Assembly: GCA_013003535.1 (NCBI GenBank) | Contig: JABDIY010000059.1 | Location: forward strand, 1 to 32,567 | Reading direction: 5' to 3' | Source of the DNA: Acidimicrobiales bacterium | Lineage (GTDB): Bacteria > Actinomycetota > Acidimicrobiia > Acidimicrobiales > SZUA-35 | Length of the DNA: 32,567 nucleotides | Part shown: positions 8,821 through 17,120 of the stretch, piece by piece | Layout: each line of letters opens with the position of its first letter | How positions within the stretch are numbered: the first letter of the stretch is position 1 | Notes under the pieces: generated by a model | Told to the model about the DNA's origin: nothing | The model's database searches: none | Seen by the model: only the letters and a program-made list of their open reading frames with translations | Program-made: the position numbers and the translations under genes

Positions 8821-8824
8821 CAGT

Positions 8825-8971
8825 AACTCCCTCCGGGGGCCGCTCAAACGCCGCGGAAGCTCTGCCTTCGGCACTGCAACAAATCCTCGGCAACGGCCCG
8901 CCCGACTGCTCAAAAACTCCCTCCGGGGGCCGCTCAAACGCCACGGACACTGCAATTCCCTCCGCGGCCTG
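8825..8971. repeat. Direct repeats of a GC-rich 28-bp unit after rpoD
   Basis: Two identical 28-bp units begin with AACTCCCTCCGGGGGCCGCT and continue CAAACGCC; they lie at 8825-8852 and 8915-8942, 90 bp apart. Similarity continues for about five more bases (CGGA). A shortened, diverged copy (AATTCCCTCCGCGGCCTG) ends at 8971, at the rpoD stop codon. The stretch lies between tRNA-Met and rpoD and holds no convincing gene. It may be a dispersed intergenic repeat that has seeded here more than once, or contribute to rpoD transcription termination. Confidence 0.6.
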
Positions 8972-14730: not shown

Positions 14731-15423
14731 GTGATCGACCCTGAACGCATCCCCGTGCACATCGCATGCGTGATGGATGGCAACGGGCGTTGGGCGAACG
14801 AACGGAACATGGTTCGCACCGAGGGGCATGCTGCCGGTGAACAAGCGCTGGTCGATGCCGTTGATGCGGCCCTCGAGCTAGGCGTGTCGTGGCTCACTGT
14901 CTACGCGTTCAGCACCGAGAATTGGCGTCGGCCAATATCTGAGGTGCGTTATCTCATGAATTTCAATGAACAGCTTTTGCTCCGGCGCCGGGACGACCTC
15001 AACGCCAAAGGTGTTCGCATCAGATTTGTAGGGCGGCGCGATTGGCGGATCCCGCGGAAACTATTGCGTCGTATCGAGGAAACCGAAGCGCTCACGGCAG
15101 GGAACGACACGCTCACACTGTCAATAGCCTTCAATTATGGCAGCCGCGCCGAATTGGTGGATGCCGTCAAGGCACTGAACGAGGCCGGGGTGGAACCGTC
15201 AGAGGAGGCGTTGTCGGCTCGGATGTACGACCCCGAAATGCCCGACGTGGATTTATGGGTGCGGACCTCAGGCGAACATCGCATATCCAACTTTCTCCTT
15301 TGGCAATCGGCCTATGCTGAGTTTGTCTTCGTCGACGCCTTTTGGCCAGACTTCGGGCGCGACGAGATGTTCGCTGCGGTCACAGAATTCCAGCGGCGCA
15401 CGCGCCGTTTCGGCGGGCTCTAA
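14731..15423 (+). CDS. uppS: Isoprenyl (undecaprenyl) diphosphate synthase
   Basis: A cis-prenyltransferase that elongates isoprenyl diphosphate with isopentenyl diphosphate to form the lipid carrier for cell-wall synthesis. The catalytic motif HIACVMDGNGRWA (10-22) carries the essential Asp16 and the following phosphate-binding residues. YAFSTENWRRP is the second signature, and LWVRTSGEHRISNFLLWQSA with YAEFVF and FWPDF are the C-terminal signatures. At 230 residues it is slightly shorter than UppS of E. coli. Chain length of the product is not readable from sequence; actinobacteria often have two such enzymes. Located between the RDD gene and recO on the same strand, as is common in Actinomycetota. 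Confidence 0.94.
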   Translation: MIDPERIPVHIACVMDGNGRWANERNMVRTEGHAAGEQALVDAVDAALELGVSWLTVYAFSTENWRRPISEVRYLMNFNEQLLLRRRDDLNAKGVRIRFVGRRDWRIPRKLLRRIEETEALTAGNDTLTLSIAFNYGSRAELVDAVKALNEAGVEPSEEALSARMYDPEMPDVDLWVRTSGEHRISNFLLWQSAYAEFVFVDAFWPDFGRDEMFAAVTEFQRRTRRFGGL

Positions 15424-15461
15424 CACCGCTTCGGCTCCCCGTCATTTCTCGGTGAGAAGCG

Positions 15462-15467
15462 TAGGAT
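15462..15467 (+). promoter_or_regulatory. Upstream copy of the recO -10 box
   Basis: TAGGAT lies 6 nt before GTG at 15474. As part of the first copy of the tandem duplication it would start a leaderless transcript whose first start codon is out of frame with recO. Confidence 0.4.
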
Positions 15468-15508
15468 CGCAGCGTGGCTCTCTATCGTGACCAGGGTGGT
15501 GAGAAGCG

Positions 15509-15514
15509 TAGGAT
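15509..15514 (+). promoter_or_regulatory. recO-proximal -10 box
   Basis: TAGGAT lies 6 nt before the in-frame recO GTG at 15521, with no Shine-Dalgarno sequence between. It is in the second copy of the 47-bp duplication. Confidence 0.45.
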
Positions 15515-15520
15515 CGCAGC

Positions 15521-16234
15521 GTGGCTCTCTATCGTGACCAGGGTGTGGTGCTCCGCACCCACAAGCTGGGAGAAGCCGATCGGATTATCACCCTCTTCAC
15601 CGCTCAACACGGCAAGATCCGAGCCGTAGCAAAAGGCGTTCGCCGGACTCGATCAAAGTTCGGATCCCGACTCGAACCAATGTCGTGGGTCAACGGTCAG
15701 TTCTATGAAGGGCGAAACCTCGACATCGTCACGCAGGTGGAAACAGCGCACCGCTTCGACCACCTTCGAATCGATTCTGACCGCCTCCACCGGGCCGCGG
15801 TAATGCTGGAAGCCGTTGAATTCACCACCAGCGACGGAGGAGTTGATCGATCGATCTTCAATCTCCTCACCGGTGCCCTCAAGGAACTGGACCGCACCGG
15901 AAATCACAGTGTGCTGCCGGCGTTCGTGGCGAAGCTCTTGACGCTGGAAGGAATTCAGCCGCTGGTAGACGAGTGCGTGGTGTGTGGTGCCACCGAAGAA
16001 CTCCAAGCAATCAACCTTCATCAGGGCGGCGTCCTGTGCCGTGAGCACCGGTCAGGTCAGATCATTACACCCGAGGTTCGGACGGCGTTGGGGCTGGTTT
16101 TCTCCGGCGAGGTGCGACGAATGATCGACGAGACGCCGCCAGCTGTAGCCGATGCCACAGAGTTCCTGGCCGTGCAGTTGCTGGAACAACATCTGGAGCG
16201 GCGGCTCAAATCGGCCACAGTGTTCGGAATGTGA
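15521..16234 (+). CDS. recO: DNA repair protein RecO
   Basis: RecO works in the RecFOR pathway, annealing SSB-coated DNA and loading RecA at gaps. The N-terminal OB fold is recognisable from ALYRDQGVVLRTHKLGEADR and IITLFTAQHGKIRAVAKG, followed by RRTRSKFGSRLEP. The C-terminal zinc-binding region has CVVCG and VLCREH. Length (237) is normal. The start is GTG at 15521, the second of two identical start regions created by a 47-bp tandem duplication. It converges on the Thr/Pro-rich gene with only 4 bp between stops. In many actinobacteria recO directly follows era; here the two are about 4 kb apart and on opposite strands. Confidence 0.94.
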   Translation: MALYRDQGVVLRTHKLGEADRIITLFTAQHGKIRAVAKGVRRTRSKFGSRLEPMSWVNGQFYEGRNLDIVTQVETAHRFDHLRIDSDRLHRAAVMLEAVEFTTSDGGVDRSIFNLLTGALKELDRTGNHSVLPAFVAKLLTLEGIQPLVDECVVCGATEELQAINLHQGGVLCREHRSGQIITPEVRTALGLVFSGEVRRMIDETPPAVADATEFLAVQLLEQHLERRLKSATVFGM

Positions 16235-16238
16235 CGAG

Positions 16239-17057
16239 CTAAGGCGGCGGATCGCCCGTTCCCTGCCATGTTGGCGGAGCGAACGTGATGTCGGGAATGG
16301 TGATCTGCGTTGTTGGGGGTGCCGTTGTTGTGGGCCGACGTGTTGTGGGTGGCCGAGTGGTGGCCGGGCGAGCGGTTGTGGGCGGGGTCGTTGTGGGCGC
16401 AGCGGTTGTGGGCGGGCGGGCAGTTGTGGGCGGGGTCGTTGTAGAACTGGATGAGGCGGCCGTTGAAGAGGTAGTGCTAGCGGCAGTGGTTGATGGCGCT
16501 TCAGTGGTTGTGGTTACAACGGTGGTCGGTGTGGTAGGCGGTTCCGGCACGGTGGCCACGGTGGTCACTCCACCAACGGTTGGTTCGGTAGTGGATTCCA
16601 CCGACGCATCGGACTCCCGCCCGAGAATCGTGAGTACTACCGACCCTGAAAAGGCGGCAACGAAGAGCACAGCGAGGGTGACCGTAACCGGCTGAGCCGC
16701 GGGACTCCGGCGAGTACCCGAGGGCGCCGCGGTGCCGATGCTGCGCCTGCGAATCGTAGAGGAAGGGTGGCTGGTGGCGACTGGCCGGATGGAACTGACC
16801 GGTCGTTCAGAACCTGTCAGCGGGCGTCTGCCGACGATTGCCGCTGCCGGTTCGGGCCGACCGAATACGCTTCCTGCCACGACGTCCTCGATAGCTCGCG
16901 ACGTCCGTCGATCGTTCGGAGCGCTGAGAATCGCCGCATCGAGCTGTTGCACCGTGGGGGAATCCATTGCCAACAATGCTTCGGCGAGCGACATCGCCTC
17001 GTCGTCCCGAAAAACACTTCCGTCGGAAGATTCCTGGTTTTCCGGCGTGTTCGACAT
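16239..17057 (-). CDS. Single-pass membrane protein with Thr/Pro-rich outer tail
   Basis: No family is recognised. The first 120 residues are cytoplasmic-looking and include an acidic helical part (DDEAMSLAEALLAMDSPTVQ) and a basic region ending in TRRSPAAQ. One membrane helix follows (VTVTLAVLFVAAFSGSVVLT). The remaining 110 or so residues are a low-complexity Thr/Pro/Ala tail, TTTTEAPSTTAAST and PPTTARPPTTAAPTTTPP, ending with a short ordered-looking segment (ITIPDITFAPPTWQGTG). The layout resembles anti-sigma or envelope spacer proteins, but this is only a shape argument. ATG at 17057 is preferred over TTG at 17072. Divergent from the DinG-like helicase with a 76-bp gap. Confidence 0.65.
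   Translation of the reverse strand: MSNTPENQESSDGSVFRDDEAMSLAEALLAMDSPTVQQLDAAILSAPNDRRTSRAIEDVVAGSVFGRPEPAAAIVGRRPLTGSERPVSSIRPVATSHPSSTIRRRSIGTAAPSGTRRSPAAQPVTVTLAVLFVAAFSGSVVLTILGRESDASVESTTEPTVGGVTTVATVPEPPTTPTTVVTTTTEAPSTTAASTTSSTAASSSSTTTPPTTARPPTTAAPTTTPPTTARPATTRPPTTRRPTTTAPPTTQITIPDITFAPPTWQGTGDPPP
16310..16443. repeat. Low-complexity GTTGTGGGCGG-type repeats
   Basis: Degenerate units of GTTGTGGGCGG are repeated with spacings in multiples of three, encoding the Thr/Pro-rich tail on the minus strand. A longer unit beginning AGCGGTTGTGGGCGGG appears twice (from 16371 and 16401). Such sequence is prone to slippage, so the length of the tail may vary between strains. Confidence 0.6.
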
Positions 17058-17120
17058 GGGTGAAGTCAGCAAAGGGTCGCAGAGATTACGACGCCAACGC
17101 CTAAAGCTTAAGATATCTCC

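Follow-up and report, generated by a model that had tools for sequence, protein, structure and literature searches.

The window, meaning the whole stretch of 32,567 nucleotides analysed here, corresponds to contig C16 in a draft genome that totals 3,995,572 bases in 221 contigs. On its forward strand, an uppS-like prenyltransferase gene (14731–15423; assigned by Pfam) is located upstream of recO (15521–16234), which encodes a protein of 237 amino acids with the Pfam domains RecO_N and RecO_C. The spacer between the two genes contains a short exact tandem duplication. A direct-repeat comparison within the window revealed that 15451–15497 and 15498–15544 are adjoining direct repeats, identical at 47/47 positions. 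The match at an offset of 47 extends over 48 bases, the extra matching base being 15545; 48 consecutive matches cannot be a chance event. TRF reported the array as 15451–15545 with a period of 47, 100% matches and a score of 190, the top of its 14 rows in the window. The perfect 47-bp tandem duplication claimed in a first-pass annotation of this DNA was thus confirmed. Both copies lie on the forward strand, and each contains TAGGAT-N6-GTG together with eight recO codons. The -10-like TAGGAT and the GTG are at 15462–15467 and 15474 in copy 1, and at 15509–15514 and 15521 in copy 2, the latter GTG being the recO start. The spacer from the uppS-like gene to recO is 97 bases and would be 50 bases with one copy.

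The assignment of GTG 15521 as the predicted RecO start is secure, because an in-frame TAG at 15509 lies ahead of it and RecO from all the relatives examined aligns from residue 1 (29/29). These 29 relatives, four of them in the same genus, were compared using tblastn and came from 57 with a recO match; their RecO N-terminus is mostly a form of M/V-A-L-Y-R-D. Because 47 bases do not make a whole number of codons, only GTG 15521 opens RecO and GTG 15474 opens another frame, in agreement with the first-pass annotation. The upstream GTG gives an out-of-frame ORF of 51 codons on the forward strand (15474–15629), whose stop (15627–15629) falls inside recO. A Pfam search with this 51-residue frame gave no match. 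The duplication leaves recO whole, and the gene is read from the second copy.

Perfect tandem repeats are expected to vary in copy number, and this expectation is what speaks for a hypermutable phase-variation locus, the phase-type switch raised in the first-pass annotation. In a phase-variable gene, changes in copy number shift the gene in and out of frame, a pattern not found at recO. The 47-bp unit carries a start codon and the first eight codons, so that the last copy keeps recO in frame, and hence readable, at any copy number; a frame-based classical on/off switch was ruled out for this reason. There are also only two copies here, and no array, or more than one copy, was present at recO in any of the 29 relatives examined. 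Phase variation is thus an extremely unlikely reading of the locus, and the earlier suggestion was abandoned.

The position of TAGGAT in the two copies matches a signal that is widespread in this genome. The motif TANNNT was counted ahead of 2748 candidate starts of 669 long ORFs in sampled contigs, with recO itself left out; the genome sample comprised 46 unmasked pieces out of 61 (803,733 bases). The gap between TANNNT and the candidate start was exactly 6 bases in 74 cases and 7 bases in 44, over a background at gaps 12–49 that averaged 10.1 per position and never exceeded 16. In a smaller sample of the same genome (2025 starts), the counts at gaps 6 and 7 were 56 and 29, respectively. Both recO copies have the motif at gap 6. 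Since TANNNT peaks 6–7 bases before starts genome-wide, the leaderless-promoter reading, which had been proposed for each copy from the motif, is well supported, and TAGGAT is in each case probably a working -10 element of a leaderless transcript. A sigma-70 consensus scan of 15300–15700 returned no promoter, as is expected of TANNNT promoters that lack a -35 consensus; 85 TANNNT-start examples from this genome, inspected by eye for such a consensus, had no column that stood out strongly. The earlier statement that the recO promoter had been duplicated holds for TAGGAT-N6-GTG, which is in both copies, but not for the sequence at the -35 position. The identity of the two copies begins 11 bases 5' of the -10 hexamer and the -35 positions differ, and the strengths of the two predicted promoters therefore need not match.

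The promoter itself is not conserved, as shown by the absence of TANNNT at gap 6–7 before recO in two of the four same-genus relatives and in all 25 of the more distant ones. The other two same-genus relatives have TANNNT-N6-start at recO, and in the two without it the recO start is close behind the upstream gene. None of the 25 distant relatives has TANNNT at gap 6–7; one has it at gap 9.

In the arrangement predicted from these motifs, the copy-2 promoter would produce an mRNA starting at 15521 and encoding RecO. The copy-1 promoter would produce a longer mRNA starting at 15474, in which the first frame would be the 51-codon out-of-frame peptide. A decoy mRNA from the upstream promoter, or a mild change in dosage, is possible on this basis. 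One reading is that the duplication alters recO expression, either because a decoy or upstream-ORF transcript lowers RecO or because two promoters raise it, with copy number tuning the level. The leaderless start signature present in this genome is in keeping with such an effect. Against it, neither selection nor copy-number variation is in evidence, the relatives have one copy, and the 51-residue frame matches nothing in Pfam. Folding the RNA at each predicted 5' end showed nothing unusual either, with z of -1.43 and -1.06. The longer transcript may also be less of a decoy than it first appears. AGGA inside TAGGAT is seven bases before GTG 15521, and Shine-Dalgarno-like tetramers are mildly enriched in this genome at gaps 5–8 (71, 61, 56, and 56, vs 37). 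Internal initiation of RecO on the longer transcript could occur through this AGGA, and the upstream transcript may therefore not be a pure decoy; such initiation would be weak at most. Overall, RecO is probably little affected, and altered expression is, in our judgement, improbable. A more elaborate version holds that recO has become a two-promoter gene, that translation of RecO faces competition from a leaderless out-of-frame ORF built of recO's own opening codons, and that slippage between the copies reversibly sets the capacity for recombination repair; this we consider very improbable.

Comparison with relatives bears on the age of the duplication. From -250 to +120 of recO, an exact tandem repeat with a period of 12–149 was found in none of the 29 relatives examined, all of them other species, and the single copy at recO in 29/29 marks the duplication as the derived state. 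Among 150 loci, a 19-mer spanning the junction matched loci of this genome and no others. Of the named records with a related RecO, the closest four are all metagenome-assembled Acidimicrobiales. Because the repeat is missing from all the relatives examined and the junction occurs only in the genome's own loci, the duplication is probably recent and specific to this lineage. The recency proposed in the first-pass annotation, where it was read from the lack of differences between the copies, is likewise probable in view of these comparisons.

The same observations could be produced by an assembly error or by chimeric reads formed during amplification, in which case the cell would have one copy and the second would have been made by the laboratory or the assembler. 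The draft state of the genome, the perfect identity of the copies and the lack of two copies in every relative examined (n = 29) all fit this reading. On the other side, a single ordinary read should be able to span the 95-base array, and the junction is not something that a k-mer assembler would be expected to invent, with any k above 48 resolving the array. Exact duplications of similar size are also found in G042, a relative assembled as one contig. An artefact keeps some weight but is unlikely, because common reads exceed the array in length and comparable exact arrays are found in a one-contig assembly.

As a kind of event, the recO duplication is ordinary in this order. The 803,733 unmasked bases sampled from this genome contain two exact arrays with a period of 16 or more, the recO duplication and one in which a 17-base unit is present about five times. 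In 400 kb of G042, which belongs to the same order, exact arrays were present in 9 of 20 pieces, with units that include 47, 56, and 72 bases. In 400 kb of a second one-contig relative, G038, they were present in 2 of 20 pieces, one with a 9-base unit. The 47-base array of G042 (L126:16689–16782) is an exact tandem duplication whose sequence is unrelated to the recO repeat, and the shared length looks like a coincidence.

We regard it as likely that the locus records a recent, spontaneous and near-neutral 47-bp tandem duplication around the recO start in one lineage. Replication slippage or template switching is the likeliest origin of the second copy; the overlap at the junction is one base. 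Small hairpins at both ends perhaps assisted the process. On the forward strand, an inverted repeat at 15446–15458 spans the left boundary of the duplication and another at 15547–15559 is two bases to the right of the right boundary; both are perfect, with a 5-bp stem and a 3-base loop. Of all window positions, 9.5% have such a hairpin within 3 bases, which puts the chance that both boundaries do at about 1%, for a pattern that was noticed after the fact. The second copy is likely to vanish again through slippage or recombination between the copies.

Bacteria are known to acquire short tandem duplications spontaneously, also near gene starts; those upstream of rpsC in Neisseria elongata, as outlined in PMC8758062, were drug-selected and tested by transformation. 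The recO duplication resembles them in being a short exact tandem copy at or over a gene start region in one lineage, but is tied to no phenotype. In Actinobacteria, a TANNNT -10 element has been described for leaderless genes (PMC3160421, PMC3898074). The recO TAGGAT, six bases before GTG and at the TANNNT peak of this genome, is like the elements outlined there; unlike them, the predicted recO element is present in duplicate, once for each of two frames. In mycobacteria, mRNAs that begin with a leaderless small ORF have been described (PMC4633059); similarly, the GTG at the predicted 5' end of the longer recO transcript starts a short frame in front of a gene. In contrast to the mycobacterial ORFs as presented there, the 51-codon frame was made by duplication, overlaps recO out of frame and is not conserved. 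A literature search on short tandem duplications that carry promoters found little that was specific. If the duplication is real, it is a natural illustration of how, in a leaderless-rich genome, all of a gene's expression signal is copied in one step by a short duplication at its start. The gene would stay intact while an overlapping small ORF arises, which is instructive for annotation. The recO duplication does not open a new mechanism.

The window contains other repeats. Directly after tRNA-Asn and tRNA-Met, a dispersed repeat with the core ACTCCCTCCGGGGGCCGCTCAAACGCC occurs twice at 8822–8960, the units being about 90 bases apart; as a query, this segment gave 45 matches in the genome, most of them to the dispersed-repeat part and some to the tRNA part. 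Imperfect repeats of 15–18 bases were found at 16311–16434, within a reverse-strand ORF (16239–17072) whose product is Thr- and Pro-rich near the C-terminus. The final 138 bases of the contig (32430–32567) contain a pair of 21-base direct repeats lying 47 bases apart and are shared at 98–99% with the ends of contigs C17, C18, and C19; a multi-copy element that breaks the assembly probably ends here.
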